Source of the DNA: Apostichopus japonicus
Taxonomy: Eukaryota > Echinodermata > Holothuroidea > Aspidochirotida > Stichopodidae
Reading direction: 5' to 3'
Length of the DNA: 64,000 bases
NCBI RefSeq assembly: GCF_037975245.1
Contig: NC_092561.1
Span: 17,985,001 to 18,049,000, forward strand
The notes under the pieces were generated by a model. That model had not been told where the DNA came from and made no database searches. It saw nothing but the letters and a program-made list of their open reading frames with translations. A program made the position numbers and the translations under genes. This document shows positions 1 to 64,000 of this stretch, piece after piece (position 1 is the first letter of the stretch; each line of letters begins with the position of its first letter).

Positions 1-256
1 TACCATGAACAAGAGCCACAGCTGCATTTGTGCTTTTTTGCTCGTAATTGTTTTGTTGCCCTAAGGGCGAAAAAGTAGCTTTTGGAGATAAATAAATATG
101 TGCTCATCAACCAAGTATTACTTGCTATCTACATTTCATATTCAGTAACAAACCAGTGAGTAACGGATCTAAGTGAGGCTGAACCCACAAAGTCATACCA
201 CATGTACATGATGACCAATTTAAATCACCGAGTTCATAAATTGCTATGTTTCTTAC

Positions 257-3200: not shown

Positions 3201-3343
3201 CATTTAGGACTGGTCTTTCTCTGGGAGAATATCCCGGCTGGTTCAAGACATATTCTCGAATCCTTCCCTCTGCATTTTTCCTAGCAAAAGCTTATATTTG
3301 GATGTAAGATTTTAAGCAAAAATATTTGTGGCAAATTCGGAAC

Positions 3344-3411
<68 letters not shown>

Positions 3412-4159: not shown

Positions 4160-4429
4160 ATCCCGCAGATGAAATATATAGCAAATAGAAAAGTTGAAGT
4201 CGACCAGCGGTAGATATCACCAGTAATGAAGATAACTTGAAAATATGACACATTTACCGTTTTTTTCACTCTTGTTAGAATTTTCTGATTTCTAAGAATG
4301 ACTGACGAATGATACCTTGCTACCAATAAGATGCATAATTCCAATAGACTAGAGAACTTTTCACTTGAAGTAAGCAAATACAGTTTGAGATGGTAATTTC
4401 CTGTGGTAAACATATCATGTAGCCATATG

Positions 4430-4541
4430 TTTGCTAATAACGAGAAAACGGGTCGATATCTGAAAATGGTTAAGCAACCAGATAATTAAATGGTTACTTA
4501 ACAATTTTCAGATATCGATCTGCTTTCTCGTTATTAGCAAA
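4430..4541. repeat. Foldback hairpin (MITE-like) upstream of gene A
   Basis: A 51-nt left arm (4430-4480) is followed by a 10-nt AT-rich spacer and a 51-nt right arm (4491-4541) that is its reverse complement with about five mismatches. The arm ends read TTTGCTAATAACG. It starts about 270 bp upstream of the gene A start codon and recurs at 59815-59926. It may be a miniature foldback element. No target-site duplication was identified with confidence. Confidence 0.8.
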
Positions 4542-6273: not shown

Positions 6274-6413
6274 AAGATCTAAGAACGCATAAACGTGCAA
6301 CTTTAATTCTACATTCAATGAATTATTTAAGCTGAGCACTGGTCTGTCTCCGACAGAATAGTTAGACTGCTGTAATAAATATCTGCAAATCCGTCCTTGC
6401 ATTGATTGTTTTT
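6274..6413 (-). pseudogene. Orphan receptor exon 2 with ruined 5' splice site
   Basis: The minus-strand reading contains GRICRYLLQQSNYS, GDRPVLSLNNSLN and YAFLDL, the family exon 2 pattern (GRIRxYLL, RPVL, YAMLDL). With an AAG acceptor at the 5' side the piece is 140 nt and keeps the phase-1-to-0 pattern. The donor reads CTT|GGAAGT instead of GTAAGT. The other copy (61643-61782) retains GTAAGT, so the GT was lost by one substitution in this copy. No exon 3-7 partners lie downstream before gene A exon 1, so this is a relic of a lost receptor copy. Confidence 0.75.
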
Positions 6414-6479
6414 CTTTGGTAACATTAAGAAGAAAACAGTACATTTTAAGAAATTTATTACCACACATACAGCTGTTGC

Positions 6480-8299: not shown

Positions 8300-11200
8300 T
8301 CAGCAACTTTCTTCCGTTCGTCCAAGATCTTGCTTAAAGAGCATTATCACAAATACAGTGACAGCAAAGAACGCAATGATGAACAAAATCAGGAACAATC
8401 TATCCATCACCAAGGCAACCGTCCGCGCTTCCAGTTGCGCCTGTAATGGTAACATGGAAAAAAAAGAGAAACAATCACTCGTTTATCTGGTTATAAGGAG
8501 TTGTTTGCACCAAATGGTAAAATATATTGGCAGGCATATCGTTCCAAGCAACAACAAAAAAAGGTAATAAATTGCACTGAATCATATCATAATATATCAT
8601 ATCATATTATATGTTACATGACTTCATCATTGAATCATGTTACCTACATATTATTAAACCAATGAAAAGTCAGCATTTCCATTAATCTGTCGGGTGTTTT
8701 TACCTTCTCACTAGCTGATAACTTCTCCGTTTGCCTTCCTGGCGACGGCGGTGGCAAAGGCGTTGGTGGCAAAGGTGCCTCGTGGTTCTTCTTTGGCGTT
8801 CCTTCCGAAGTTGACAAGGTAATAACTTCATCCATCTTATTGAAAAGTGGTTTTGGTTTTACGACAATGAGTACGCTATGAACTCTGTCTCGGTAAGTTG
8901 GCATGCAGAACATTTTAGGCAGTATCTCTAGCAGGATGTTCCTACACAATGAGTCCTTCAGGACCCATAATCGACTGTCTCCATAAGCTATGGAAATGTT
9001 AGCCAAAGAGAAAGGAACAGCGAGACAGGCAAGAATAAAGGTTGCAGTCAAATAATTGCCGATAATCGGAGGCGTCTTGCTTGATGATGGCAATGTATCC
9101 ACGATAAGCAACTGGAATACAGTTAAGCCAAGTACCATTGATACACCCAGTGATATTCTTTCGCCGCTATCAGGTGGAGCCAAAAATGTTACAAATGCCA
9201 TTACACAGAGACAGGTTGAAGGTAGGAGGAGAGCAGTAAGATAGTAAGTAGGGTCTCTTTGGAGATGAACGCACACTAGTCCAAGTGAATAATTATCAAC
9301 ATGGCGTCCTTTTATGAATTCTTCATGTTGAGACACCCAGTTGACCACGGTTACATTGAGGAGGTCCCATTGATTGCTAACAAGACTGTGTGTCTGCCCT
9401 GGCTGGACAATGTAGAAATAAACTTGATGAGCAAGCAAGTTGTCTGGGAGATAACTAAAAGGACAATGTTTGTCGAACGGAAAGTATGTGATGCTGTAAA
9501 CAATAAAGAAGAAAGGTAAACGTGAACAGTAATGCGCGTTCTAGCCAATCATTATGAGGAAACCACAGCTATAAGATATAACTTTTCGTAAGTAACCATA
9601 ATATTCAACAACAAAAAATCGTATTATCAGTTAACCATAAAATCAGCGCTTCAAGCCACGTCCAACTATCCATGTTATTTTTAGTCTTGCCGTTGACATG
9701 ATCAAATCAGACAACAAATGGAATCGTTGTGACGGTAGTATCATTCTTTTGGAAGTTGGAGCATTATGGAATCGGCGTCTTAGCTAGATAACTTCTAGTA
9801 AACAACTTAACACGCTACTTTGATTCATACGATGTGACACATGTTTAACTTTCTATTCTAACGTTTATAAATATTCAATATGTCATTATCATGACATTAA
9901 TTGACTTTCTAAACTTACATGATAGGGCATTGTGTAGACTGGACAACAGCAGTCCCGAGCTGAACGTGACCATTTGACGTCAGTAAGATAGATCCTTCTG
10001 AGTTTACTATACCAAGAGCTTTTTCACTCAATCTGGATAAAATAAAATAAAATAATCCTCTAAAATAACCCTTAATAATATACCAAGTCGCCTTAGAGAG
10101 GTTTCCAAGGTGTCGTTCAAATTGTGTATTATTTTTATTTTGTAATAGCATTACTGGTATGTTTTTCAGCTTCAGTGTTTTCCTGTTCATATGACCATGA
10201 CTAAAACTTTATATTTACATTTTATGTTAGTAGAGTGTAATGCAGTGTGTTTTATTCATTACAGCATCTAAACTTTTGGGGACTATATTTTACAGAGACA
10301 ATGTCTCTTTTATTTTGTTATGGACGCAATGTAGCGTCTCTGATCAGTTACTATGTTCTTATCTAAAAGGATTCTACTAAACATCTACCTACGTTAGCCT
10401 GTTTTCAGTAATATAGACAAGAGTACTTACGAGTTGCTCAGGAATATCTTTGGTGTCCAAATTTCGTCAACGTACATATGTATTAGATCAACGCCGCTGA
10501 AATTACTCGGATCCCATGACATACGCTCATCTGTCCAGGTCTGAAATAAAAATATGCAAATGTGATTAATTGTTATCATAAATAAACATTTATTTTGATA
10601 CTTTCAATTTGTGCTAACGATAGTTAGCACCTGTCAGTGCTGAGAAATATGTAACACCTCATTTTAAGTCATCTCTGTAGAACATTAACAAACGAGTTAC
10701 ATCAGAATGCGAAATAATGTTACTCTTTCACTTGTTAGTTTGTTTGTAAAGATTTTCCAAAGTTTTTCAACTACTGTTCCAGCAAATTGTTTGTTTCCAA
10801 TAATTGTCAACTACGGTTTCAGCAAATTGTGTCAGCAGATTTTATTTGAATATATCACTAAATATCGTAACTATTATGACAACATATATTTGGAATTAGT
10901 AAAATATCAAGTGAGGTAAATTTAAAAAAATAAAAATTTGACTAATTGTACGAAACCAAACTATTAAATCAGCTTTCAAAGCTAAGATTCTATCGATATT
11001 AACCCATCTGAAATGTCAGCAAGTAACATAAAACTGAAAACATTTGAAAAGTTGAAAAGTTACAAGTGTGTTTAAAGATCACGTAACATTTTCAACACAA
11101 GTTGTTACCATTGTCAACCAAGAAGCAGTCGTTAGTACTTGATCCTTTTCATTCTGGAAAGAAACAACACAAATAGAAATATGACTTCTGTATTTTTGTT

Positions 11201-36168: not shown

Positions 36169-38626
36169 ATGAAGTATTTCTTGCGTTATTCACTGCGTGT
36201 TGCGGTGACTATCTTAGGTTTCAACCAAGGTAAGACTACATTTTATTAGGATTTGGCGACCGTTATTAGAATGAAGCCTGTGCATTGGCAAATTTCCTTA
36301 CAAGACACAAAAGTCAGATATTACATTATATTAAATGTTAATACTTTCGTAATGGAAATTTTTATTTCGTCATTGGAAGTCACGATGAAGCACATAATGA
36401 TTGCCTTGTTCACAGTTCAGTGACATTAAGGAACACCTTGAAAGTATTGATCAGTTTCAACATTGATTGCTCAAATTTTTAGTGTTTCTCACCGTGAGAT
36501 TTATGTGCCTTTCTGTAGAACCTTCACTGTTCAACTTGAACCGTCCGGTGAGAACCCTAATGTAGCTCATGTGGACACCAGTGATCTACCCGTGTATCAA
36601 GCCTTTGGTGAAGTCTGCGATTAAATCAAGTACATGCCATCTTTTTCTTATTATTTTCTGATTAACTTTACAATAGTATTATTGTAGTATCGCATCAGAT
36701 TCAACGAATTTTAAGATATACATCATCAACGCAATATAATGAAAATAGAATGCAAATCATCAATCTATACGTTTTGAGGTGTGAAGAAAATGGCCCGATA
36801 TATGCCCTTTCTTTGCAATTCCGATTGGTTTGTTCAAACCCTGTCTTATGCAAAGCGAGGAGAAACATATCAGTAAAGCTGAAAAAAAAGTTAAGTGTTT
36901 GTTTTTGATCATTCTTCTTTCTTCTGCAGAAAATTTACGCGAGGAAACAAAGGTCAGTGACGCTACTAAATGTTAAGGTTGTGTGATTTTTCATATGTGT
37001 CTGATATTTTTAAGCAGTCTTTTACGATCCATGATAATCAAACTTTTACACGGTAGCTGGTTTTCGAATTCTAAAATAAGACATCAGCCCAACATGAACC
37101 AAATTGAGATCGAATACAGACGTAAACAAGAATAGGATCTCTAACGAAACTATAAAATAATGATTAAATTTAGTGCATAAAGTAGAACATATCACTGTTA
37201 TGCCTTGATCTTTTAACACATAAACGTGAATATTATCTTCATTCGGAATCGGCGTGTGGCTTGAAGATCAGATTGCAAAGAACTCCGTCTTCATTTTCTT
37301 TATAGGCTCCGTTACATCCATAGTTCAAACCCATTCTCTGTCTGGATTAAGTTCTCTGATTGCAATCCTAATCTATCGTATGTTAAAACTGCACATATTA
37401 TGCTGAAACCCTTTAACATAGAGTAATTCAAATCGTATCACCATATTAAACAAAGACGTTCTTTTTACGATCCATGATAATCAAACTTTTACATGGTAAC
37501 TGATTTTTGGATTCTTAAATAAGAAATAAGCCAACATGAACCAAATTTAGCTCGAAAACAGACGTAAACAAGAATAGAATCTCTAACGGAACTATAAAAT
37601 AAAGACTAAAGATATTGCATAAAGTAGTACATTTCACTGCTATGCCTTGAATTTTAAACAAACTATTATTTCATTCGGAATCGGCGTGTGGCTTGAAGAT
37701 CAGATTACAAAGAGCTCCGTCTTTAGTCTCTTCGTAGTCTCCGTTACATTCATAGTTCAAACCCATTCTCTGTCTGGGTTAAGATCTCTGATTGCAATCC
37801 TAATCTAGCGTTTGTTGACACTACACATGTTATTCTGACCCCCTTTAACATAGAGTGATTCACAGCTTATCACCAAACTAAAGAAACACGTTCTTTTTGT
37901 TGTTGTTTTAAGTCCATGAAATGTTAAAACTGAATGTTTAAAACGAAAATGTAATATTTATACATTATGACATTTTACAGGAAGGTTACGGTTTCATAGA
38001 GAGCACAAATCATTCTTCCTCCATTTTGCCATGTTAGTGGGGGGGAGGCGGGGGGGGGGGGGGGGAGAACCATGGTGTGTCCTGAAATATAAATTGGCTT
38101 TAAATTGCAGAAAAATCTTTACATTATAACATTCATCGACTCTTGGTTCATAATTCAAGTAATAGTCATTAGTTTTTTTATTTATTTGGAATTCTGTTGA
38201 ACGAAAATAAATAGGGTAGATTACAAAAAAAAGTTTAAACATTGGCACGAAAATTTAATTCTCATCAAACACTGATTTCAAATTTAATTTATTTGCCATT
38301 TTTAATTTATTGTTTAATTCTACTATTATAATAATAAAAATTAAAGAAAAGACCACCATTCCCTAGTGTTCTGTGAGAAATTGAATTTGGTCCATCTATC
38401 CATCGCGTCTATAACATTTTACAAACTTCATCTGATTTTTGCATTCGTCATGTAACTTATTTTTTATCACCAGACAAAGATTCAAGCTAGAACTGCTGCC
38501 CTGGTAATGCACCGACTGGTGAGTGTAGTTTTCAACACTGTATTTGCTGTCCTCTTTATTAAAACCTTTCTCAATTTAACAGAAATTCGGGAGCTCAGAG
38601 TGACATTTGTCAATCTCTCGACATGA
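36169..38626 (+). pseudogene. Receptor relic F: signal exon and orphan M4 exon
   Basis: 36169-36229 is a 61-nt signal exon (MKYFLRYSLRVAVTILGFNQ) ending in phase 1 at GTAAGA, with the same opening as relic E. 38474-38626 is a perfect terminal exon: AG before it, then TKIQARTAALVMHRL as in the family M4 exon (KMEARTVALVVDKL), a hydrophobic helix and a TGA stop, 153 nt in phase 0. Between them exon 6 is missing. Only a faint exon-2-like patch (LNRPVR, then a shifted NVAHVDTS) is seen at 36521-36640. The two ends of a gene remain with the core deleted. Confidence 0.6.
37018..37895. repeat. Tandem duplication, two units of about 440 bp
   Basis: The segment beginning TTTTACGATCCATGATAATC at about 37020 recurs at about 37464, followed by the same succession of landmarks (AACAAGAATAG, GGCGTGTGGCTTGAAGATCA, CCCATTCTCTGTCTGG). 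Divergence is roughly 10% by eye. It is noncoding, inside the deleted core of relic F. Confidence 0.85.
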
Positions 38627-40165: not shown

Positions 40166-43100
40166 CTATACAGACGTTTTGTTACCAGAAAACTTTATCA
40201 CCACAGATATGGCAACAATAAAGTAAGCAAGGAGAAATAATAGAAGAACCAATCTGTCCATCACTAAACTTGCTGTACGAGCTTCCAATTGCATCTGCCG
40301 AAAGATAAAATGAATCAAATCAAAGTTTTTCCAGAAAGCATAATATTTTAGTTACAAGCAGTTGTGGCAAAAGCCAATACGACCTTGCATGATATTCCAT
40401 ATGGGTGACAAAGTTGTAACCAAACAGTGCATTGTTTTGTCGAGTCATAACTTGTAAACTTTTCTCATTTCTATTTTATTCATTCTTTTGTGTCACTTTA
40501 TTATTTGGGATAAACTTGATAACATTTCTTTTGAAATTTAGTGACACGAGTCTTGACTCGTTTCAACGCTGGTATATTAATCATAGTTTAGCTAATGTAT
40601 TTACATTTTTGCCACAGTGAACTGGAAAATGTCCTAATTTATTTTCCTATGGTAAAACTTATGACTTACTGTTGCGCCGTGCAAATACACTGACAACCTC
40701 TTATTACTTGGTACAGATATTTGAGCAAATTCATGTTATATACAAGCGTATATTCGGGATAGAAGTGTTATCACGCAAATAAATTTGTAGGGAATATATT
40801 CTCACCTTTTCCTTGTGAGTAAGTTTCTTTGTCACATAACCAGGAGTCAGTGGCTGGACTTTATTCAAAACTGGTGGTGTCTCAATCGTTGTTACCCGAA
40901 TTAACCCTCCATCGTTCAAAATTTGACTCATCCCTTGATTCATATTCCCACTGTAAGCTCTCTCTTCGTAGGTAAGTACACCGAGAATTTTCGGAAGAAC
41001 ATCCAAGATCAAATGATTAACGAAAGGATACTTTAGCATTCCAATTCTTCGTTCACCGTAAGCGATATTTATATTGAACAAAGAAAAGGGAACAGCCAGA
41101 CACGAAATGATGAATGTCGTTGTAAGGTATTCACTTAGGATTGGTGGATTTTTGCTGGCTGGGAGTGTATTGGCAACCAATAACTGAAAAACTGTCAGAC
41201 CAAGAACCATAGAAACCCCAAGAGATATTCTTTCTCCGCTTTCAGGAGGAGCCAGGAACGTGGCAAATGACATGAGACAAAGTAAAGTTGATGGAATAAT
41301 AAGAGTAGTGATGTAGTAGCGTGGATCCCTTTTGAGGATAACATGAATCGTAGCGAATGAAACTAAAAGTGCATCTTCATCGTCTAGATAATTCTCAAAT
41401 GGATAGAGTTCGTTCAAAATCGTTGTGTTTATATGTTCCCATTCACTACTTAGTAGGGTAGAGGGATATGATACTTCTGAAGATGTGAGGTTTAGTTTGT
41501 CAACCTCTTGGTTTTCCGGCACAAAATAATAGGCGCAGATTTGGGTGTCAAAGGGAAAATATCGAATCCTGAATGAAAATGAAAAATAAAAGTATCTAAT
41601 TTAGTCCATAAACCAAGAAAGGCAAATATATTTTGTTTAGGGTATGGGAAAGTAACGGATATTACAACATAGTAGTTTAAGTTCACCAAGATTACAAACA
41701 AAATATATGGTCTTATGCATGCACTTTGGATAAATGTCTGTGTAGCAATAATGCAATTAAACAAAATAATAACAAAAGTGTTCTGTTTGTAGAGGGGCAT
41801 ATTGATCGTGAGTATGGATCATGTTAGCAGTAATCACTTTCCGACCCACAGCCTAAGAGTGGTTATAAACATCTCCACATATTAAGTCAAATTCACAACA
41901 ATAGATAGCTATTACATTCATCATTAACTCTATCAATTAAAAAGCAGAGCTTGATGAATATCACAATAACCCTTCTCAGTATGATTCAATATCTAACAAC
42001 CATGGACGTACCCAAATAAACACTGATGTGCATATAATTGCCAAGCATATCACTTAATCACAAACTCATTTAACTTCAGGAAAAAAAGAGAATGCAATAA
42101 TTAATCGATATAAATCAATTTTTGAAAGTGATTTGAGTAACTGAACATTGTTGGAATCATTAACACTGTTTCGAATTTCATATTTATAAAATGGACGTTT
42201 TATAAAGCCAAGTAACATATGCAATATGACACTAAGTGGACTTTATAACCGATAACCTCAAAACACTTGCATCATATGACACAGAATGGACTGTATGACC
42301 CATGTCCTCACAACACTTATATCGTATGACACTGGGCCCATGTCCTCACAACATAATCATATGACACAGAATTCACTGTATGACCGATGTCCTCACAACA
42401 CTTACATCGTATGACACAGAACGGACTGTATGACCCACGTCCTCACAACACTTACATCGTATGACACAGAATGGACTGTATGACCCATGTCCTCACAACA
42501 CTTACATCGTATGACACTGGATGGACTGTATGACCGATGTACCCAAAACATAATCATATGACACAGAATGGACTGTATGACCGATGTCCCCAAAACACTT
42601 ACATCGTATGACACTGGATGGACTGTATGAACCACGTCCTCACAACACTTACATCACATGATACAGAATGGACTGTATGACCGATGTACCCAAAACACTT
42701 ACATCATATGACACAGAATGGACTGTATGACCGATGTCCCCAATACACTTGCATCATATGACACAGAATGGACTGTATGACCCACGTCCTCACAACACTT
42801 ACATCGTATGACACTGGATGGACTGTATGACCGATGTACCCAAAACATAATCATATGACACAGAATGGACTGTATGACCGATGTCCCCAAAACACTTACA
42901 TCATATGACACAGAATGGACTGTATGACCCACGTCCTCACAACACTTACATCGTATGACACTGGATGGACTGTATGACCGATGTACCCAAAACATAATCA
43001 TATGACACAGAATGGACTGTATGACCGATGTCCCCAAAACACTTACATCATATGACACTGGATGGACTGTATGACCCATGTCCTCACAACACTTACATCG

Positions 43101-43603
43101 TATGACACTGGATGGACTGTATGACCCACGTCCTCACAACACTTACATCACATTGCCACATTTTTGAAAGTGATTTGAGTAACTGAACATTGTTGGAATC
43201 ATTAACACTGTTTCGACTTTCATATTTATAAAATGGACGTTTTATAAAGCCAAGTAACATATGCAATATGACACTAAGTGGACTGTATGACCGATGTCCC
43301 CAAAACACTTACATCATATGACACTGGATGGACTGTATGACCGATGGCCCCAAAACACTTACATCATATGACACTGGATGGACTGTATGACCGATGTCCC
43401 CAAAACACTTGCATCATATGACACTGGATGGACTGTATAACCGATGTCCCTAAGACACTTACATCATATGACACTGGATGGACTGTACGACCGATGTCCC
43501 CAAAACAAGCTTTCCGTTATACATGAGCCATATGGTACCTCGATCCTCCTTAACAACATCCAATGCATCAGTACTCACACTATAACAAATTAAAAATTAC
43601 AAT

Positions 43604-43635
<32 letters not shown>

Positions 43636-43699
43636 GATAACTTATATTACATTATATATGTTATGTTATGTTAAATTATATTATACATGTTGATATATA

Positions 43700-43735
<36 letters not shown>

Positions 43736-44543
43736 TAATATATAATAGCTATATTACTGAGTGCAAATAAATCCTTTATACAGAATGGGAACAATTTGCA
43801 AGTTGCTACATGTACGTTAGAACTATAACCTTTCTCCAGCTTTAACGATTGTCGTCTGACAATTTCCTTACCGATTCTCACTTCTAACGTTGCTCTCGCT
43901 TTCTGTTTTACCTTTGTGGGGTGGGCAACTTTGGTCTCAACTGTCCATCCCTGAGTTTAGCATACAAGCAATGTTGTCTGCGCAAAAAGACTATTGTGCT
44001 GCATACCTATACTGTGGTTATATCCCACATTATTGTATGAACGGTTCTATACTGCAGAGATTGATTACACATGTACGATCTGTGTTACCTAATACTAACT
44101 GAAAGGCTCAATAGAATTTTGCAATACTTGCGTCCTGCTCATTGGATATTTTGAATCGCCCATGAATTATGAAGTAAACTACTGGAAATGTAGTGGAGTG
44201 TTGTTCAGAATGGAAGGAAGGCTCCCTTTGAGTACCTTGAGCATTCTACAACAAATATCTTTGATCACAGTACTTGTAATGTCATTGTATGAAGGAGAAA
44301 GAATTACAAAGTAATGATAGCTTTTAATAATGGTAGCTATTTTACATGTGAAATTAATATAATAAACAGCAATTAAATAATAACTGTTCAACTTACGCGT
44401 TGCCAAGCATTATTCTTGGTACCCATACATCTTTATTGAATATTACGATACTTCTTACGCCATCGAATTCTTCGGGGTCCCAAACTAATCGTTCATCCAT
44501 CCATGTCTATAAAGAAGTATGTAATATACATATATGTATAAAC

Positions 44544-44576
<33 letters not shown>

Positions 44577-47500
44577 AATATATATATATATTTATATATA
44601 TATATATATATATTTATATGCACAAGAATAAAACAAAATTTAATCAAATATTTTAAGGTAATTTAATAGGTATACTAAAGAGAAAATAGTGTGTATTCAA
44701 TTAACAATACATATTATGTATTATAATAAACTCTTAATAAAGTAACGTGGAACATGCTAACGGTTACATATTATAAGTAATATGATATATAATACAATAT
44801 TTGTAAGAACTAGTCTTAATCAAAGTATTCCAGAATTGATTAAACTTTCCAACAAATTACTAAGCAATGCATTCAAATAATGTATGCATACCACACCGGA
44901 TGTTTTTATATAAACCATGACAATAATGGGTTGTACTATACTTGCTACAAGCACAGGAATATCAAGATAGCTTACCAAAGTCAACCAAGAGGCAGTGGTA
45001 AGTGTTTGATCCTTCTCGTTCTGCATTGAATCAATTGTTCCAAAAGTATCAGATGTTTAAGAAAAGGGGAAAACATGTATATAACGAAATTTATAATAAA
45101 CAGCCAATCAGGAGAGGAAACAACTAAATCGTGCCAAAGGCTGCCTTTATTCTTTAAGTCTTTCAAAAAGGGACGTGGTTAACGGATATGATATGATTTC
45201 TAACTGAAAATAATCTGGAGTAAAAAACTAGGGCCCAGTATTTCATTGAGAAATACTTTTGTTTAAATATAAACTTGATACCATATACGTACCATGAACA
45301 AAATGTTGTTTCTTTCTCACACACATTTGGCGCATTTTACAGGAAAATATCTCCCCCCCAAAAAAAAATAAATAAATAAAAAACAACAACAGGCAAACGC
45401 TTATCGAAATATTATGAAATAAGTTAATTGTTTGTATCAACTGCGTATTTTTAAGTACAACTAAGAAAATATTTCATCAAAGTCTGAACTGGATCCCTAA
45501 GATTTGCGATGTATGGGGTTTAAGAATGGTAGTACTTTAAGATAAGAGTAAAATAAAAAGTTATTCCTAAAATGTGTTCATTCTGACATTTTCATCCGAG
45601 AGTAGGGGTTAAAAAATGTAACAATGTAGCTCAATTCTTCCCCGGAAGATCAGAGTAAAGGTATTCATGTACTCACCAGATCTATTAAGGCGTAAAAGTC
45701 TGTTTTTATTTCAATATGAACAGATTTGTTGGCATGAAGAACAGGTCTGTCGGTCAGATGGAGGTTCGGATGAGTTAATATGTAATCACGTATTCTCCCT
45801 TCTGCGTTTCTCTCGTACCTCCCATGAATAGCTACATAAACACAAAACAATACAAACTAAAGTTTATAGCTGCATGAACACAAAATAATACAAACTAGAA
45901 GGTGTTAGATGCTTGTACACAAATAATACAAACTAAAGGTAATAGCTGAATGAACACAAAATAATACAAACTAAAGGTTATAACTACATGAACACAAACT
46001 AATACAAACCAAAAGTTATAGATACATGAACACAACATAACGAAAACATGAACACAACATAACGTAAATTAAAAGTAATAGCAACGTGAACACAATAATT
46101 CAAACTAATGGTAATATCCTGAACACAAAATAATACAAACTAAAATTTATAGCTACATGAACACAAACTAATACAAACCAAAGGTAATAGCTACATGAAC
46201 ACAAAATAATACATGTCAAAGTGAAAGTATAACTAATCGTATCTTTGTTGAATTGCATTAATTAGGAAAATTCAATAGTATTTTTGTTTTCTAATATGCG
46301 TGACATATATTGGTTTAATTATTTTGGGTTCTTTGTTTCCAATATAATCTTTAACAAGAATTTGGGAAAAGCGGAGTCATTTATTTTTCTTTAATTTAAT
46401 AGTAAAGGTTACTTGTCATAATTATATGATCAAACCTGATGATTTTATTTTAATGTAAATGTGATAAATATATCTTAAACAAAACCACAGGTTAGTTACA
46501 GAGTGTAGATATACGCACTTATATTAGAATTTATGAGGGAGAACAGAATGGAATGAAAATGACTGGTATTGTGTAAAATGTAATGTATTAGCGAATTATT
46601 TCATTACACGTTTAGGTGAAAATTTAATTTTCGACACACCCACTTTTTAGGGTGGTGAGTACTAGTCTTAAACCGTACACCAGAAACACATCAGATCTGG
46701 AAATATTAATATGAATAATAATTGACAATTCGAATTACAGAAGAGAACTAACTCTGTCAGTTGAGATTTTCAGTTTTTAAAATTTTTAAAATTATGTAAC
46801 TAAATGCAACGAAACAAGTCTATGGCAAAGTTCAATACTGAACTTTGGTAAGTCTAGACTGACTACTGACTGGCATATTTCAACATATTTACTGATTTTG
46901 TTTAAGCTAATGAAGTTGAAATCTGAAAAAGAAAATTAATACTTTGGTAAATTATTTGCTGTTTTATCAAAGACGAACCATATTTAAATTGCCGATAGCA
47001 AATTGCTTCGTTGGTGGATTTAAGTAAGCTTCACAACAATAAATTATCGTTTATTGTATAATTTTATTTTCCATTTTAACAGTTTAATCACAGCTATAAT
47101 GCTACTGAAATACAACTGTAACCCAGTTCGGTAGTCATATCAATGTATAAAGGAAATCACTGTGTACCTGAAACGTAATTTGGTACTTTCGGACAGGGAA
47201 AATGTACAAGGAGAAATTAAAGTAGGCACAAAGGGGGTAATTGTTTTCGAATTACCAAATTATATATGATTATACTTTTTACTAGTAACGTAGCCAGATG
47301 TTATGTAATAACGTTAAACCAGTGATAACACAAACATGCGCTAATAGACTTAGCAATAACTTTATTACGGTACTAACATTTATACTATTAGAGTTTCTTA
47401 TGAAATCTATTAAGATTTTAGCTAGAATATGTCAATAAGTATCTTCATCATGATACTGAATTGATACGATATTCAGTTCAGTGGAGTAATCATCAAGTAT

Positions 47501-48647: not shown

Positions 48648-49250
48648 TATATATCTGTCATACCACTTGCTACACATTCATTTCTATATATGTGGATGGA
48701 TGGATAGATGGATGAATGGATGGATGGATGGATGGATGGATGGGTGGGTGGGTGGGTGGGTGGGTGGGTGGATGGATGGATGGATGGATGGATGGATGGA
48801 TGGATGGATGGATGGATGGATGGATGGATGGATGGATGGATGGATGGATGGATGGATGGATGGATGGATGGATGGATGGATGGATGGATGGATGGATGGA
48901 TGGATGGATGGATGGATGGATGGATGGATGGATGGATGGATGGATGGATGGATGGATGGATGGATGGATGGATGGATGGATGGATGGATGGATGGATGGA
49001 TGGATGGATGGATGGATGGATGGATGGATGGATGGATGGATGGATGGATGGATGGATGGATGGATGGATGGATGGATGGATGGATGGATGGATGGATGGA
49101 TGGATGGATGGATGGATGGATGGATGGATGGATGGATGGATGGATGGATGGATGGATGGATGGATGGATGGATGGATGGATGGATGGATGGATGGATGGA
49201 TGGATGGATGGATGGATGGATGGATGGATGGATGGATGGATGGATGGATA
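48606..49250. repeat. (TA)n followed by a 0.56-kb (TGGA)n tetranucleotide array
   Basis: A TA tract at 48606-48648 is followed after about 45 bp by TGGA repeats from 48693 to 49249, about 139 units. There is one block of GGGT variants at 48741-48768 and otherwise near-perfect units. The array ends exactly where LINE coding homology begins. Open frames of about 200 codons in several frames on both strands are a by-product of the repeat having no stop codon. Confidence 0.97.
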
Positions 49251-50910: not shown

Positions 50911-51345
50911 TTACACTTTGTCATTTCTTTCATCGTAAATCCTCTCCTGGTAACTTGGTAGGCACATTACTCTGGGTAACAACTCCAACAGGAACATTTG
51001 AATCCTTCCGTGTTTAAAAAAAAACGCATTTTGCTGTCTCTGTATGCGATGGTTATGTTGGACAAAGAGAAAGGTACGGCGAGACAAGAAAGGACGAAGG
51101 CATTTGTGAGATATGTAGAAATAAGTGGACCGTTTTTGCTCGCAGTTGGTAGTATATTGGTGACCAGTAGTTGAAACACAGTGAGACCTAGGACCATTGA
51201 TTCACCAAGTCCGATCCTTTCACCGCTGCCAGGAGGTGCTAAAAACGTCGCACACGTCATCAGACACAGTAAGGTAGACGGAATCACGATTGTTGAGATG
51301 TATTTTGTGATGTAACTGTTCTGGATTTCCGTACTGGTTATATTT
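50911..51345 (-). pseudogene. Broken extra copy of receptor exon 6 downstream of gene A'
   Basis: From M1 (KYISTIVIPSTLLCLM) through PPGSGERIGLGESMVLG, M2 and M3 the minus strand closely follows gene A' exon 6. A long T run then shifts frame in the M3-M4 loop. The downstream homology (FLLELLPRVMCLPSYQERI) continues in a different frame and stops at 50911-50913. The extracellular part, the exon 6 donor and the M4 exon are absent. Asp-to-Gly in PPD and Val-to-Glu in M2 also argue against function. It lies beyond the last exon of gene A', so it is not an alternative exon of it. Confidence 0.82.
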
Positions 51346-52879: not shown

Positions 52880-55800
52880 AATATATATATATGATATTTT
52901 ATTTAGTAACCACACCCCATCCTTCGTAGCCCATATTCCAAGGACCCGCCCCTGGCTATTGTTCAGTATTTTCTTATTAACAAAACACCTCCATCCCACC
53001 CCTACCCTACTCTTACCTGACCCCCCCCCCATCCGATATGATATTTACCTTTTCCTGGTAACCCAGTGTTTCAGATATCGTAGCTGGAATTGTTTGCATG
53101 GGTTGTACCTTATTGGTAGGTAATTCTTCCACCGTTGCCATGGTTACTATGTCGCTATCCTTGCTCACAATACCAAAGTCTCCTTGAACCCTTTCCCTGT
53201 ACGTTGTCAAGAAGAGTAATCTGGGTAAAGTCTCTAGTAAGAGTTTCCTAAATTTCGGTCGCCTCAGAACTGAAATTTTGCTGTCTCCATATACGATTGT
53301 TATGTTGAACAAAGAGAAGGGTACGGCGAGACACGAAAGGACGAAGGTATTTGTGAGATAAGTTGAAATAATTGGAGCGTTTTTGCTCGCAGTTGGTAGT
53401 ATGTTGGTGACCAGTAGTTGAAACACAGTGAGACCTAGGACCATTGATACACCAAGTCCGATCCTTTCACCGCTGTCAGGAGGTGCTAAAAACGTCGCAT
53501 ACGACATCAGACACAGTAAGGTAGATGGAATCACAATTGTTGTGATGTAATAGTTTGGATCTCGTTTCAAGGACAAGGAGTATATACCAGTTTGAAAAGT
53601 ATGCAAAGTTCCACTAAATTCCAAATCTGCTTGATAATTGGTCGCGGTAAAAGCTAAAAGTTCCCATTGGTTGTTCACGATACTTGACGGATACCATGAC
53701 GTAGTCGTTGTAAAATTCAACTCTCTTTTAGACTGATTCTCAGGGGTGAATATTAATAAACATGTCTGGGTGTCGAAAGGAAAATAGTATATTCTGAAAT
53801 CAAAAGATAAAAATAAAATGTGTTAATTGATCGGGAAGCTAAATTCAATACAATTTTGATCAGTTTTATGTAACTAGATAGAAAGGAGCTGTATAAGAGT
53901 GTAACTGGTTTTGCATTTAAACATTTTTACATTATTCATGTATATTTAAATTTTAAACATTATCATCGTCTTAAATGAGCAGAGTGAATAAAAATATAAT
54001 TTGTACACGGTTTCAAATGTTTCCAACATTGGCTGCAGCTGTTAACTTTGCCTCATGATTCAGCATCAATTTGATTATTATGTTGAAGTTTTACCTTTAA
54101 ATCCAATTAAAGCACCATTTTGCGTTAGATTTTAACAGTCTTAAGAAAATAGTTTGATAGTACTGTAAATAATGAGACAATCATGACAAGGTACTTCTCT
54201 TGCCAGTCTTTGTAAGATGAATAAGGGTGAGGTCAATTTTAGAACAAGTTTCAGAGACCGTTTCAGTAACGTTCATGCTTTACAAGGAAAGGTAGCCGAT
54301 ACTCATAGCTGGTACATTAACTACTGTTAATGTCCTGTAACGCATGTTACCGTGTTACGAACACAAAGTAGTAACTACCGATGCATGGTTGTGGGATGTA
54401 AAAAGTAGTTGCTGTACCAACCATTGAGTGCGAGTTCTGTAATACGCAATTCTAAAATGAAGTCGTATCCAATCGTTTTATGCTATAAGTAGGCATATGG
54501 ATATACCCGAACATGGCCCTTTTTTCGTTAACGGCAAGACGAATTGGCAAAATTTAAAGATAGGTGTGACTTTGAATCAAGCGGTACCGTACCTCATTTA
54601 CTTCATCCCGTAGGCATTCTCATATTCATAGACTACTTGTCCAGTCACACAGTTCTTTGTCTTACATGGGAACAAGATAACAGCGTTGTAGTTGTTACAG
54701 TGCCACTTTACCGTGTAACGAACACAACGTAGTAATTACTGATGCACGGTTGTGGGACATGAACAGTAGCTGCTGCACCAGCAACCGGGTATGAGTATCG
54801 GGTGGGTGCAAAGAGTCTCCGATGTACTGGTAATGTGATACTGTGACTATACAACTGAACGACCCGACATATTTAAACTTACTATAATTATGTAAACAAG
54901 TGCAGTTAGCAGGCCACACGGAATGCAGTACGCGGTGCTAGTCAAAAATTAAACCTATTGTTTTAGTACTCACTTTACCTTACTGTTGTACTACCATGTA
55001 TACTGTCGTGCATTTTCCTACCGTCAATTGACTAAAATATTTGGAGGTAATAGTTGACAAGAAGTTGATGAGAAAATGATTGCAATATGATTAACGAAGG
55101 CTGATTATTTCATTATAGTTTTAATTATAGCAAAATCTTTGTGCAATGTTATGACTTTCATGAATCACTACTCTTGTTAACACGAAACCGCTCGTGTGAG
55201 TTTTTCTTTTTTAAACGCATATTATTGTCAAATGAAATAACACAGTTTTATTTACATGATACTGGCATCTGTCAATATACTCTCTTGAAGGCCGGTCCAT
55301 ACCATGAACAAGAGCCACAGCTGCATTTGTGCTTTTTTGCTCGTAATTGTTTCGTTGCCTTAAGGGCGAAAAAGTAGCTTTTGGAGATAAATAAATATGT
55401 GCTCATCAACCAAGTATTACTTGCTATCTACATTTCATATTCAGTAACAAACCAGTGAGTAACGGATCTAAGTGAGGCTGAACCCACAAAGTCATACCAC
55501 ATGTACATGATGACCAATTTAAATCACCGAGTTCATAAATTGCTATGTTTCTTACATCATTTGACATTGTGTAGTTTGGATATAAGGAGTTCCTAAGACC
55601 ACTGAACCATCGTAATACAATTTGATGGTACCCCTGTCCACCGTGACTACCTGCATTCCGTCCAATTTCACACTGTGAATTAAATGAAAAGTAACATTTT
55701 CAATACGAGGAATCAAATTATATAATTTCCCGCTGAAATCAATGAAAGTTATCTATATGTCAACATATAACAAAAACATCTTCCTGGTGATAAGATTGCT

Positions 55801-58740
55801 CATATTCTTTATCCATGTTATGATGTGAATGAAATTAATTAATAGCAGCTTTTGTTTTGCATTCATGTTCGTTTATATTGCTTTTAATTTTCATTTCCCT
55901 TTCACTTTTACCACCGTTTAAAGAAACATTTATTAAATTGTCTAACTCTTCTTCTCGTTGCCTCTTTTCTTTCCTCTCTAAACTTTCTCGTCTTCTACAT
56001 ATTTTTTTCTAAGTTAATACTTATGGCATGTATTTTTATTATCCTATGTTTGTTTTACTCTAAAAATCATAATGGAAAATCACTTGAGTAAGCAGCTTGC
56101 GCACATTGATTTTCCAAGCCAACCGTAGAAACATATAGGGCAATTTATTCCACATGTCAGCGAGTCAACTGAAGTCTAAACGATTATATACTGTTTCGAG
56201 TTTCTTGGGCTAGTCTCTAAACTCAAACTCGAAATTCTAAAGTCAGAAATATACTAATTATAATTATTTCTATAATATCCTTTCATTACATATTTATTTG
56301 AGTTACTTACGCGTATGTGAGAACTATGGATGGTGTCCAAATTTCATCGTAGTAAACAATGACGTTATCAGAGCCTTCGAATTCATTGGGATCCCAAGTT
56401 AGTCGTTCGTCTCGCCAAGTCTATAGACATGAGATAAATACATGATTGTGCGCAGGGGGGAATAGCCTGAATCTTACAGCCTCCCCCCCCCCCCCTTAAA
56501 GAAATACATAAAAATGAATACTGGAAGCTGTAGATGTTCATGGGTGACACTTATTAGGTTTTTAACCTGTATCTATTACAAGGCGTATACACAACTCCCT
56601 TTACGAATAAAAGAAATTGCTGCATGTTTGTTTTTTCTTTTCTAAAAATGAAATATTATGATAGCTTACTTTCATTTTGTATATACATTTAGCATTCCGT
56701 TCCTTACTACCAGTGTGCGTTTATTATTAAAATGTTTTTAAAGATACTGTCACATCATTTTAATGGTCGGTTTCTTCCAACATTAGAAGAAAAACTAAAT
56801 TTATCGTAACCATTTGCATGCGTGTAACAATTGAAAAATAAATATCCATTTGGCACTTTGAAATATGTCCTCGTTCTTAAAAAACAAATACGGGTGAAAT
56901 AAAGCTACAATACTTCAGAGTGAATTGAATGACAGTACTCGTGAGTAGTCTTTCTTTATCAGCTATTAATTCAACTTTCATTATGATCATTTAATTAAAA
57001 TTAACTTTCATGCAATTAATCGAAGCTTACGGTCAACATAACCTGCCGACTATATTAGAGTCTTTTTAAGAAAATCAATCTCATCAATCTCATCACTATG
57101 TTTTTTATTCTTGCTTAGATAGTAATTTCATGATAAGTGAACATATCTTGATTAATTGGAAATAAATTAAAACACAAGACTCGGGAATGAGTCTATTTTA
57201 TATCAGCTACATTATTTTAACTTTCAATAATATATTTTTTATTAAATTAACTTTCATAAAATTATTCGAGTTTAACGTAACATAAAATGCGACGAAATTA
57301 TTGTACTTTTGAGTAGACAAAATTGCATCACTATTTATGTGTGTGCTTAGATAGTAATTTCATGATAACTTAACATTTCTTGATTAATTGGAAATAAATG
57401 AACTATTAAGTTATTGAATTAAATTTACACATACACACAGTCTTATACACTTGAAATTAAACTCTTATATTTAAGGAATTATAATAGACCGCGCATTAAG
57501 TGTCTTCAAATGATCATGTTAGACAATACACAACAACTTGTATTCAATCTGCACGTACATGTCAGACTTATAATTAGACTACGTATTCTATAAAATTTCT
57601 CTCTGATAAAGTTCGACCACTTCTATTTATCAAGTACTGTGGAAAGTATAACTTTACCGAGATGCTAAGTTGATGAAGTACTTCGTTATTTGTGATCAAT
57701 TCACGATAAATGTCTGTAATTTTCGGAAGTTACCGTAACTGTTCTGAAGATATATCAATCAAAGACTGGTATATTTATACCACAGACTTACATCGAGTTC
57801 AGTGCTATAGTTACTTAGTATTGTAATTAATTTGAGTATGTAATTTTTAAAATGTATTTTTATTATTATTAACATGCAACAAAAACATTTACCAACGTTA
57901 TCCAGGAGGCTGTCGTTATCGTTTGGTCCTTTTCATTCTGTAAGTAACACAATGTAATTACACGATAGACTGAATTTCACATAAATGTTCAAAACAATAA
58001 TAAACACACAAAATTACCGCGTTACTATTTATATCTTGATTTCAAATGATTTATAAATACGTAAATTCCCCCCCCCCCCCGCAAAAAAAAAATGTTAAAA
58101 TATAACGAGCTTTTAAAAGAAAGGCTATCACTTATATCTAAAAACCGATTTTGATATATTACATAAATGTTTGGTACAAGAAAATTTAAAAATCTACCAT
58201 TCATTAATTGCAACTAAGATTTCAAAAGTTTGCAATGAAACGATTTACAGAATTAACAATACTTATATTTTCTAATTTAATTTTCAAATATTTGACCAAT
58301 TACATCATACGTTATAAATTATTAATAATAACTTCCTTCCTTATGCTTCCAATAAATCTAACATTTTCAATCAGTGAGCATATAGGTACAGCATCCTATT
58401 ATTTAAAATAATTCGTTCATTTCTTAATATTTGTAAATCTGGAAGAATACAAATAAATGGAAGAAGAATAAGATTGTTTTTTCAGTTTAAATGCTTTTTT
58501 GAGTACTTACCAAGTCTACCATTGCGTAAATTTGCAACGATAATGTTACATTGACAGGATCGCTGGCATTTAGGACTGGTCTTTCTCTGGGAGAATATCC
58601 CGGCTGGTTCAAGACATATTCTCGAATCCTTCCCTCTGCATTTTTCCTAGCAAAAGCTTATATTTGGATGTAAGATTTTAAGCAAAAATATTTGTTGCAA
58701 ATTCGGAACATGTATATATATATATATATATACATACATA

Positions 58741-58797
<57 letters not shown>

Positions 58798-59542
58798 AAA
58801 TGCGGTAAGATATGTGAAATTATGAAATTCAAGGATTAAATACTTTACTAACATATTTAAACTGTTATTAACCCTCACAGCAATAAATATAAAAATAGAC
58901 AAAAGTATTGCAAATTGTAACGATTTAGCAATGAATATGGTATTGTAGTATGAACAATTGTCTCTACAATTCAAAGACATTAGAAAATTTCTTTCGTAAA
59001 TGTACAAATATTGTTAATCATATCCAAGTTGTGTCATCACCCGATAATAAAATATTGAGAGATGATGAAACCAAATTAAATATTTTGATCGGTTTGGAAG
59101 TTTAAAAATGCTTGGTGACATTTATAATAACCTTAAGTAACGCCAAAAAGAAAAAATTCATCTTTACAGGAACAACATTCTATTCCTGTTCAATCAATTA
59201 GTAACGTAATTGCAAAATTGGTAATTTTATCCAAATGTCCGTTTGAAATATGAATAAACTATTAAAGTAATTATAACAATAATGACTAATCCAAAAGCAG
59301 AAATATAACTGTGAATCTTTTGTACATTTTCAGTCTTTCATGTACTGGACTTTCATTTGTGTCCTGTTAGTCTATTAAGAATTGTTACTTTTTTGTTATT
59401 TCTTTTAGACAGTTATTTAGCTTTTCTTCGTCACTGGATAATAATATTAAAGTAGCCTTACGTAATATCTGTGAAGATTCACGACATTTACAAAAAACTC
59501 ACCAGGTGTTGCGATGATGAGCAAAAAAACGTACAACTCCAT
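51788..59542 (-). CDS. Gene A': Cys-loop ligand-gated channel subunit, complete, 451 aa
   Basis: Exons on the minus strand: 59503-59542, 58511-58656, 57893-57937, 56311-56420, 55556-55672, 53049-53793, 51788-51940 (1356 nt, phases consistent). Signal peptide MELYVFLLIIATPG. Exon 2 has RKNAEGRIREYVLNQ and RERPVLNASDPV. Exon 3 is NEKDQTITTASWITL. Exon 4 has TWRDERLTWDP. The Cys-loop runs C150-C164 with 13 residues (YFPFDTQTC). M1 about 234-256, M2 about 263-285 after PPDSGERIGL, M3 about 292-317, M4 about 415-437. The loop C pair and loop B SW motif are absent. Its exons 1-5 lie partly in the right copy of the large direct duplication, so gene A is its near-identical twin. A TA/CATA microsatellite precedes the exon 2 acceptor. 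Confidence 0.9.
52826..52892. repeat. TA-rich microsatellite in gene A' intron 6
   Basis: Interrupted (TA)n with GTA and AAA variants, between the M3-M4 exon and the M4 exon of gene A'. Confidence 0.85.
53794..55555. other. Gene A' intron 5
   Basis: About 1.76 kb of noncoding DNA. A short imperfect duplication is visible, with ACCGTGTTACGAACACAAAGTAGTAA near 54350 resembling sequence near 54709. The left edge of visible homology to position 1 of the window falls at 55300. Confidence 0.6.
58713..58793. repeat. TA/CATA compound microsatellite in gene A' intron 1
   Basis: TA units flank a central block of CATA units. The equivalent site in the left copy is pure TA. It sits just upstream of the exon 2 acceptor in gene A' sense. 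Confidence 0.95.
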
Positions 59543-59814
59543 ATCCCGCAGATGAAATATATAGCAAATAGTGAAAAGTTGAAGTCGACCAGCGGTAGAT
59601 ATCACCAGTAATGAAGATAACTTGAAAATATGACACATTTACCGTTTTTTTCACTCTTGTTAGAATTTTCTGAATTTTAAGTATGACTGACGAATGATAC
59701 CTTGCTACCAATAAGAAGCATAATTCCAATAGACTAGAGGACTTTTCACTTGAAGTAAGCAAATAAAGTTTGAGATGGTAATTTCCTGCGGTAAACATAT
59801 CATGTAGCCATATG

Positions 59815-59926
59815 TTTGCTAATAACGAGAAAACGGGTCGATATCTGAAAATGGTTAAGCAACCAGATAATTAAATGGTTGCTTAACAATTTTCAGATAT
59901 CGATCTGCTTTCTCGTTATTAGCAAA
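59815..59926. repeat. Foldback hairpin, right copy
   Basis: Same 51-nt arms and 10-nt spacer as 4430-4541, about 270 bp upstream of the gene A' start codon. One arm position differs from the left copy in a way that improves pairing (GGTTGCTTAAC). Confidence 0.8.
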
Positions 59927-61642
59927 GGTTTCGCTTATGTTTTGCATCTTTTCACTCGTTCGTGTCTTTTGAAACACCACTCCTCTAGTTATTAAATCCA
60001 CTACTTTATTAAATAGTCCAACCATTAGAACCTTGTTCGTGTGAGATGTTATAAAGGAGCTTCCAGTTTTGATTTGGACCTACATTTTGATGGGCTTTTA
60101 GTAAAGAGTAGAATTGACAATGTTTATCCTACAAGTTTTATACAGTAGAAACGATTATTATTTACAATAACCTATGCTTAAATAGACACTGATTGATAGG
60201 AGCAAAAATATCATTCTCGTAAACAAAGCAAATTATTCCAAATCCTTGAGTGTAGAATTAGAACTTTTATAGCCCTTGTAACAAAAGATTGTGTTAAGGG
60301 ACGATATTTTTAATGTTGTTAAATTGTGGTTAGAACACTTGATCGCAATTAAGTAATTATTCACGTTACTTGTACTGCCCCACCCGATACCCACAAAGAT
60401 TACAGTAACTACTATAAATCTTAAAATTTTTGTACCAGAGTAAAAACTGGATCGTGCTATAAATTTTAGCGTGTGCTATTAGGATTACAGAAAGAACTAA
60501 GGATATGTGTTATTCCAACAAATCCAGTTGTTTGGTAAGCTGTGATTTAACGCATTTCATAACAATACAAAATAATTTCAATTTATAGTAGGATTCCTTA
60601 AATATGTTAGTGAAGAACAATAAAAAATGAAGTCAATTAATTTTCTTAAAGAAAGGAGACCGCTGTACCCTATATTAGCTATGAATGAATTATTTAACTG
60701 CGTTTCAATGTGAAATTAAAATCACAACTTTGTAACCAATATTATTTTTGACCAATAAACACAATGTAGACTTACGTTAAATAAACTGTTAAGAAATTAT
60801 GTTACTAAGTTTGTTCCTGGCAAACATCAAAATACTATATTTTGTATCTAGTACTACAATGAAACCAAATAATTGAAAAACAGATATATACATAGATTAT
60901 TCATCTCCATACAGTGATGCGAGCTCTGCCAATGTGACAACAAGTACAACACCAAAAGCGATTAAAAGCAAAGCAGAACAATCCTGTACATTACCAAACC
61001 ATCTGTGCGAGATTCAAGTTTTACATGCAAAGAAAAATCGAAATAAACGATCATAAACAATTAGGCAGAAACCCAAAGTGGAAAGGTGGCAATAAATTGA
61101 CGCTCAGACATTTTTAATTTCTAACTGTGTCATTGTTTTCAATTAATTAAACGTACTCACATCATGGATGTGTTAATGACGTTAAAGGAGCTGGCGTTTA
61201 CCATTTAGAATATGCTTTCAATAATACAATTTAATCGCCTTCTTCTAAATAATACATTGAAAGGCGTCTGTTGACGATATGTTACTGTAAAACATATTAA
61301 GAACCATGGACGGTTTACTTGAATTGATTCAAAGCCAATCCACTAGAAATATGTGTGTAAGATTTTATTCATGGACAGTTTTACTAATCTATGAAAATTA
61401 CTTTGTAAATAACTATATAATTTAAGAACGATCATTATACAATTTTTAGTAGATATTTAAGAAACTAGCAGTCTATAGCATATGTAATGTAGCATTTTCA
61501 TGGTGTTATTTAGCCAAACCGACAGTTCGTTAGTATGGACACTGACAATATTTATTACAAAGGGGAAAATGAGGTATTATCTTTTGCTTGCATTATGTGG
61601 CATATATTTGATGGTAATACGCTGCGAAGGGAACCTACTTAC

Positions 61643-61782
61643 AAGATCTAAGAACGCATAAACGTGCAACTTTAATTCTACATTCAATGAATCATTTAAG
61701 CTGAGCACCGGTCTGTCTCCGACAGAATTGTCAGACTGCTGTAATAAATATCTGCAAATCCGTCCTTGCATTGATTATTATT
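61643..61782 (-). pseudogene. Orphan receptor exon 2, right copy, donor intact
   Basis: Counterpart of 6274-6413 with MQGRICRYLLQQSDNS, GDRPVLSLNDSLN and YAFLDL, followed by a normal GTAAGT donor. The 5' boundary is uncertain because the AAG acceptor of the other copy is altered here. No partner exons are seen on either side. Confidence 0.7.
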
Positions 61783-63730
61783 TTTTGCTTACATTAAGAA
61801 GACAACAGTACATTTAAAAAAAAAATATTATCACACATACAGCTGTTGAAGTATTTACCTGTTAGAAGTTGTTCTTTCCTTCATACAATCCTTGTAACAT
61901 CCATACTGTAGCTTCCTGGCTAAAGTCTACATGACATTGTTGATTCATATCTATCCATTCAGTCATTTGTTCATCCATCTATTTATCCATACTACATTAC
62001 TTTATTCTTCGCTCTTAGTATCCATGCATTCTCCTAATGCTTCTTCCCTTCATTCTTGAAATCCTGTGATGTCGTTTTGAGGATACCGCTCTCTGTTGTG
62101 CTTGTCAATTTATTTTGAGACAATGTATTATGGCATTGTACGCGACATGCATGAAGAAATGGCTAACCTTAACAAGGGAGCTGCTACTCGTTAGCAGCTC
62201 CCTGCCTTAAGTACCAAAAAACACCTAGTTTATTGAGAACCCGAGGCTCACCTCAACTACCAAGCATCTAGTTTACTGAGCACCCTATTTTGAAGTCATC
62301 ACTGGAGTGTTCAACCATGCACCAATGATAGTTGAGGGTGCTCAAAGTTTTTCTTTACCGTCCAAACCTTGAAAGAATGATAGACTATAAACGTACTCGA
62401 TGAATTGCCCCTTACCAAAGTTACTGACAAACACCACCAACCTCTCTCTAACCAGATAACTTCACTTGGACATAATTTTGTAGTTTTCTTAACTAGAAAA
62501 CATTTTTTTTTTGCTTACTGCTACAATACTAATTATATCATTCAAAAATTGAAACTATAATCGACTCGACAACACAAATAAGAAACGAAATCAATTACTA
62601 TAAGCAAAAGCTTACTATCTCACACACGAGAGCAACTGTTTGACAATACCGTTAAACTTTAAACCTGGAATACTTGTTATTTCTTTCTGTGAAGGTTGCA
62701 TTTGTAAGTTTGTTGTTGTTATGTGTCACTTACAGACTGAGAAAATGAAATCACAACTAACAACTTACACCAGGTAATACGTAGATATATCGTTGAAGAT
62801 TAGGCAAAAATGTTCATGCCATCAAATAATTTTAATAAAACGATTATTCAGTAACCTATATTCGACAATACTTAATTACTTTTTTTGGAGGCGAAACTGA
62901 GCTTTATTTGATGTAGTATGTTGCCCTTTTCCTGACTTCTATCCTCTATGGTGGCCATCTAATTAGGTTTTGTAGTGGCACACACATTATTCCTATTGCA
63001 TGGGCTCAAGAATGTACACACGGAAACGTCTAAAGTGGTGCTTTTAATGATTATTGACCCTCTTGATTGTCAGCTTTATCAATTACAGGGTAAACTAACA
63101 TTTGAGTCCTCAAACAGACCACATCAAGTAAAAAAGAACTAATTATGGACTCTATTCTGTTGATTTTGCAGACATTTCCGTTGTGTGCTTAGTCTGTTTA
63201 AGAAAAAGAATATAATCAGTTATTTAACACTGACAAAATTAACTTTAGACATTGTTTTACAAAATAGGTACTCAATCTTTCAATTTATACTCTACTCTTA
63301 AAATTATAGACAAATACGCTTGGGATGCTGATTGAGTTATCTAACGTTTAATTTACCCCAAAGAAAACGTTTAAAGAAAACTTGAAAGCTGAGAATAAAA
63401 GTAAATGGTAATAAAATATCGTAATCTTGCTGTTTGTAAGGATTATATATATTGTAATTTCCCTTTTTTTAAATTTGTAATGTTTCCTACAGGTAACATT
63501 GTTCCCTACTGTTTCCTACAGGGCATATCATATATTATATATCATATATTTTTTTAAACAATGATTTTTACACTTATCAAGAGACAATATAGTCATACGA
63601 ACATACTTAGAATGAAACAATGACAAGGTATTTACATGGCATTGAAATATATGTAATTGTGTGGCAGGCCTTGCCACATTTTGACAAGTTTTCACTAACT
63701 TCTTTGTATGTAACGTCTCTAAAAGAGGTT
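61783..63730. other. Noncoding DNA, right-copy equivalent of 6.48-8.30 kb
   Basis: Apart from the short hairpin, no feature beyond those described for the left copy. No exon is recognised. Confidence 0.55.
62175..62203. repeat. Perfect short hairpin inserted in right copy only
   Basis: Arms AGGGAGCTGCT and AGCAGCTCCCT (11 bp, perfect) surround a 7-nt loop. The left copy lacks this block at about 6800. Confidence 0.85.
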
Positions 63731-63871
63731 TCAGCAACTTTCTTCCGTTCGTCCAAGATCTTGCTTAAAGAGCATTATCACAAATACAGTGACAGCAAAG
63801 AACGCAATGATGAACAAAATCAGGAACAATCTATCCATCACCAAGGCAACCGTCCGCGCTTCCAGTTGCGC
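63731..63871 (-). CDS. Gene B': last (M4) exon of a second gene B copy, rest beyond window
   Basis: 141 nt identical to the gene B terminal exon: AG acceptor, AQLEARTVALVMDRL, a hydrophobic M4 helix, and a TGA stop. Exons 1-6 would lie past position 64000 if the duplication continues. Confidence 0.8.
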   Translation of the reverse strand, partial: AQLEARTVALVMDRLFLILFIIAFFAVTVFVIMLFKQDLGRTEESC

Positions 63872-64000
63872 CTGTAATGGTAACATGGAAAAAAAAGAGA
63901 AACAATCACTCGTTTATCTGGTTATAAGGAGTTGTTTGCACCAAATGGTAAAATATATTGGCAGGCATATCGTTCCAAGCAACAACAAAAAAAGGTAATA

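Follow-up and report, generated by a model that had tools for sequence, protein, structure and literature searches.

Two boundary-spanning minisatellite ladders of splice-site copies in one Cys-loop receptor gene of Apostichopus japonicus

Tandem duplications of exon/intron boundaries have been named 'mirages' in two lancelet papers (PMC3087553, PMC3902484). In the text available from these sources, such arrays are described in BflGb6 (one haplotype with 6 units and another with 3, the units being of 150-160 nt), in BflGb9 (a 157-nt duplicate) and in Adh3 (units of 10-72 nt; PMC3087553, with the original description in Canestro et al. 2002), to which PMC3902484 adds PGBD5 (2 or 7 units of 60 nt and 3 or 6 units of 108 nt) and troponin C. 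According to the accessible part of PMC3087553, mirages affect both 5' and 3' boundaries, their length is unstable, with additional somatic instability at Adh3, and the border units of the globin arrays are exempt from homogenisation. The same part builds a model of intron gain on boundary duplication, and remarks that repeat-borne signals could serve as cryptic sites. Regular splicing is held to be undisturbed by lancelet mirages, at least in the passages at hand of PMC3087553 and PMC3902484. In humans, the available portion of PMC2812944 links internal tandem repeats at exon/intron boundaries to alternative transcripts and to putative novel introns, and intron gain via tandem genomic duplication is treated in PMC4974935, in PMC2812944 and in the model of PMC3087553, again as far as the accessible text of these sources goes.

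A literature search for further mirage cases and for work on donor competition returned little or nothing beyond the two lancelet papers. A minisatellite of the human IFI6 (6-16) gene is said, from the title of a 1995 report by Turri et al., to provide multiple splice donor sites; its unit reportedly measures about 12 nt and resembles a bare donor consensus.

Two ladders of splice-site copies are found in a single receptor gene of Apostichopus japonicus, here called gene C, within a window of 64,000 nt of contig NC_092561.1 (the whole stretch of DNA that was analysed). As in lancelet mirages, the repeats cross an exon/intron boundary at a 5' or a 3' splice site, and both kinds of boundary are affected, by a donor ladder and an acceptor ladder, respectively. 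Splice signals (AG/GT) are likewise present in many, not all, copies: GTAAGT terminates 14 of the 23 donor-ladder units and GCAAGT three of them, while five of 10 acceptor copies upstream of the real site keep an in-register AG. The donor ladder also shares with lancelet mirages a homogenised interior, visible as classes of identical units, and a divergent border, represented by units 5 and 23. Lancelet mirages have been reported from several genes. Gene C differs from the published cases given above in unit number and length, with 23 units of 50 nt and 11 units of about 38 nt at two boundaries of one receptor gene. The likeness is one of anatomy, and on that anatomy the gene C ladders are best assigned to a known, seldom described kind of repeat, the 'mirage' minisatellites. 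An earlier note on this DNA, which had described the donor ladder, called such an array unusual; it is less so than was claimed, since such arrays have already been named in print.

The IFI6 minisatellite resembles the gene C array in bearing several donor sequences; the gene C unit differs in that 44 of its nt are conserved coding sequence. Tandem duplication that leads to intron gain also involves the duplication of exon edges that bear splice sites, but no new intron is evident in gene C, where the copies sit in an existing intron.

Gene C is a Cys-loop receptor gene of the nicotinic type, encoded on the minus strand, and its exons 2-7 were located using tblastn among the window's own paralogues together with splice signals. 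These are exon 2 (45677-45831, with the acceptor TATGTAG/CTATTCATGGG and the donor GATCTG/GTGAGT), exon 3 (44976-45020, NEKDQTLTTASWLTL), exon 4 (44397-44506), exon 5 (43463-43579), exon 6 (40806-41568, IRYFPFDTQIC followed by transmembrane segments), and exon 7 (40166-40294, the last transmembrane segment and the stop), all on the minus strand. Once joined, they form a single open frame of 438 residues, with canonical junctions and a sole, terminal stop. No exon 1 was found in a search for a signal-peptide-like open reading frame with a donor, and the phase of exon 2 was therefore inferred from its own frame. The protein matches Pfam PF02931 (ligand-binding, 5e-32) and PF02932 (transmembrane, 3.4e-17); its top PDB match is nicotinic beta-2 (2.1e-36), and nicotinic and 5-HT3 receptors lead its solved relatives among the best 60 of 322 matches. 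Both domains of Cys-loop receptors are thus present, together with the C-x13-C loop.

Exon 5 continues the reading phase of exon 4, and its own frame closes with ...QSIQCHM AT; the exon ends at 43463, reading CATATGAT/GTAAGTGT, and exon 6 takes up the frame at 41568 with G ATT CGA TAT TTT CCC. The join between exons 5 and 6 falls inside the Cys-loop, which reads C-HMMIRYFPFDTQI-C in the joined frame. Because exons 4, 5, and 6 join in phase and give a Cys-loop of 13 residues, the exon 5/intron 5 boundary on which the donor ladder had first been placed is right.

A cluster of Cys-loop receptor genes and gene fragments, on both strands, extends across the whole window, with receptor exon matches near 0.3-3.3, 5.6-6.4, 8.4-11.8, 14.8-18, 30-32, 34.9-38.5, 40-46, 51-58.7, and 61-64 kb. 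G+C content is 28-39% per 2-kb step. A direct duplication of about 8.5 kb (1-8569 and about 55300-64000, 96.6-97.3% identical) carries receptor exons in each copy, and represents either a recent segmental duplication or uncollapsed haplotypes. Exon 2 of one fragment ends at 6274 with GGAAGT and its near-identical copy at 61643 with GTAAGT; the donor was probably lost in the 6274 copy. An exon-6-like fragment in two pieces (50935-51302) is possibly a pseudogene. A TGGA array of about 139 copies (48693-49249) lies upstream of exon 2 of gene C, and a 432-bp tandem duplication with 86% matches is found at 37020-37898. Rfam gave no match in the window at gathering thresholds, and plasmid and viral collections gave none, as expected of an animal gene.

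The donor ladder (42215-43506, minus strand) runs down intron 5, from 43506 to about 42215 when the minus strand is split into units. It consists of 23 units with the exon-5 end and GTAAGT, or a decayed version of it, in agreement with the roughly 23 copies first reported; the genuine exon/intron boundary is that of unit 1 (43457-43506), to which exon 5 contributes its 44 terminal nt. Each full unit measures 50 nt, namely, the final 44 coding nt of exon 5 plus GTAAGT, which is equivalent to the 43 nt plus GTAAGTG of the original description. Tandem Repeats Finder places the array at 42224-43507, with a main period of 50 and an overlapping period of 147 nt. The length is 50 nt in 18 of the 23 units (including the last one, which the splitting script cut at 50 nt), and the mean pairwise identity of these fifty-mers is 0.87. 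The donor has been lost from units 8, 11, and 17, each 47 nt long; units 5 and 21 have an irregular form and are followed by other sequence, and an extra GTAAGT at 43147 stands in a partial unit adjoining a duplicated flank. The 11-mer GATGTAAGTGT occurs 15 times, the real donor included, always within the array and nowhere else on either strand of the window, so the earlier figure of about 15 perfect donors holds; GATGCAAGTGT occurs three times in the ladder. In a blastn search of the 64-kb window (word 11, E 1e-3), no DNA resembling the ladder was found outside 42050-43650. The ladder is therefore not a product of chance, and an origin from a dispersed repeat was, within the window, rejected on the same result.

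Four paralogous copies of exon 5 are present in the window, namely A and D, which lie in near-identical segments, B+, and B-. They all carry the coding end of gene C, [L/F]GTxxxQxxxCxxM, with 44.4-52.5% identity over the aligned exon, and agree with unit 1 of the ladder in 31-33 of its 50 positions; a scan for junction copies found none of the exon-5 junction at these four paralogues. Because the paralogues have the coding end without junction copies, exon 5 is taken to be ancestral and the array derived, that is, grown from the exon, which upholds the coding-exon origin put forward in the earlier note.

Within the ladder, units 8, 11, and 17 are identical to one another, as are units 9, 12, and 18, in line with the 147-nt period, and the ladder probably spread recently in three-unit blocks. 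Its distal flank in intron 5 (42118-42223, minus strand) has a second copy inside the ladder (43160-43265, minus strand), matching at 105 of 106 positions. This 106-nt recurrence, with its one mismatch, suggests that units 6-23 are products of block duplication, so that duplication probably involved a larger block as well. Units 5 and 23 each adjoin a copy of the flank, have a divergent border in common, and are not homogenised with the rest. Since identical units recur in three-unit blocks, length polymorphism of the donor ladder is plausible.

The acceptor ladder, missed in the earlier note, is made of copies of the exon-2 3' splice site and crosses the intron 1/exon 2 boundary of gene C (45827-46213, minus strand). 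It contains 11 units of TTTGTATTATTTTGTGTTCATGTAG/CTATT, spaced by 22-39 nt, mostly 38, of which the final one is the real exon-2 3' splice site at 45831. Paralogue E matches the exonic bases CTATT at the start of exon 2 (AG/CTATTTCAGGGAG). Besides the upstream copies with AG in register, one further copy has AG 4 nt earlier. Two of the in-register decoy acceptors read CAG and the real acceptor reads TAG; a CAG acceptor is, if anything, stronger than TAG. The AGs listed upstream of the real acceptor (46290 to 45856) lead to a premature stop in 18 of 18 cases, in the phase inferred from exon 2. With two ladders in existence, the observation is stronger than first stated.

The scan for junction copies was given 50 junctions and provided 47 valid tests, the invalid ones being the acceptor of gene C exon 7 (one base off), the donor of B- exon 6 (guessed), and the donor of H exon 2 (non-canonical). 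Copies were sought within 3 kb, at a threshold of 7 mismatches in 28, and were found at 2 of the 50 junctions, both in gene C: the exon-5 donor, with 17 copies, and the exon-2 acceptor, with only one, the other nine upstream acceptor units coming from a looser pattern than the scan threshold. According to Tandem Repeats Finder, no array in the window other than these two ladders has a period of at least 20 and at least four copies once an A/T-only array is set aside (44524-44619, the 22-nt row of which also falls within the period and copy cut-off). Under random placement, the probability of an array ending inside an exon edge is 0.049 and 0.050 for the two ladders, and jointly 0.0025, a post hoc estimate for which some exon ends are approximate.

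Decoy donors reading G[T/C]AAGT lead, in 17 of 17 cases, to a stop at the same codon, ATG-TAA (...QSIQCHMM, then the stop), as had been predicted for any donor other than the exon-proximal one. This stop predates the array, since AT/GTAAG is read at each of the five exon-5 ends identified in the window, whether or not an array follows. Donor strength was assessed as the RNA duplex energy against the 5' end of U1. On this measure, 14 decoys are identical to the real donor over 11 nt and have an equal duplex energy of -7.3 kcal/mol; elsewhere in intron 5, over 646 nt, the best site reaches -6.1 kcal/mol, and none comes within 0.5 kcal/mol of these donors. As 14 decoys are identical over these 11 nt, site strength cannot explain a preference for the real donor, which would have to rest on position or exon definition.

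Retention of the donors was compared with that of the rest of the unit, leaving out units 5 and 23 (border) and unit 1 (the exon itself), with the irregular unit 21 force-aligned. GTAAGT is intact in 13 of the 20 decoy units, the six-column blocks of the unit are intact in 5 to 20 (median 12), and 17 of the 45 blocks, donor block included, are at least as intact as the donor block. This test, a weak one owing to few and non-independent units, gave no sign that selection favours or removes the decoy donors, which tentatively look neither guarded nor purged.

Both ladders of this Cys-loop receptor gene are probably boundary-spanning 'mirage' minisatellites of a largely neutral kind. They would have arisen by tandem duplication and grown through unequal exchange or replication slippage, and the spliceosome would act mainly on the real sites next to the exons, in keeping with what is reported of lancelet mirages. 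Occasional use of an exon-5 decoy would yield a transcript that stops at ATG-TAA, and occasional use of an exon-2 decoy acceptor would bring a stop in or soon after the extended exon 2; owing to the premature stop, the product would be decayed or truncated, without receptor function. Several points speak against decoys that are mostly ignored: the identity of 14 decoy donors to the real one, the CAG decoy acceptors, the human boundary repeats, and the remark on cryptic sites in the accessible part of PMC3087553. If the decoys did compete for U1, the number of intact copies would set the share of productive mRNA, and the acceptor ladder would act as a second control. Such a splicing rheostat, the function proposed in the earlier note for the donor array, is possible, quite unlikely, and unsupported. 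The 14 decoys equal to the real donor at -7.3 kcal/mol, a value approached to within 0.5 kcal/mol by no site elsewhere in intron 5, would suit it, as would the premature stops predicted for all 17 decoy donors and all 18 listed upstream AGs, and the IFI6 minisatellite, reportedly titled as supplying multiple splice donor sites. The link between human boundary repeats and alternative transcripts in the available text of PMC2812944 points the same way. Nevertheless, donor retention is no higher than the unit background, the read-through stop is common to all five exon-5 ends and older than the array, and lancelet mirages are held harmless to splicing in the portions at hand of PMC3087553 and PMC3902484. 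It is very unlikely that decoy acceptors and donors form a two-ended rheostat, in which a length change of the ladders, inherited or somatic, would adjust how much of one receptor subunit is made.

Decoys identical to the real donor could also be used some of the time as weakly harmful noise, lowering the output of one member of the cluster, with gene C maybe bound to become a pseudogene. The related receptor genes clustered within 64 kb would fit this reading, as weak harm may be tolerated because paralogues cover for gene C, but it is unlikely: the frame stays open through exons 2-7, their junctions are canonical, and no decay was seen. An assembly or sequencing artefact, through an inflated unit number or a false block duplication, is most improbable. 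The segments of about 8.5 kb at both window ends, at 96.6-97.3% identity, could be uncollapsed haplotypes, and the assembly may therefore hold false duplications; however, the units of the donor ladder differ in a structured way (mean pairwise identity of 0.87 over the 18 fifty-mers) between sharp borders, and a second, separate ladder of different sequence is present.

With gene C, a receptor gene that bears two ladders joins the known cases of boundary-spanning minisatellites, a proposed source of new introns. The ladders, probably a pair of largely neutral mirages, constitute a natural test of spliceosome choice among identical donors that differ by position only. Were the decoys in use, the number of units would set receptor dose in a heritable way.
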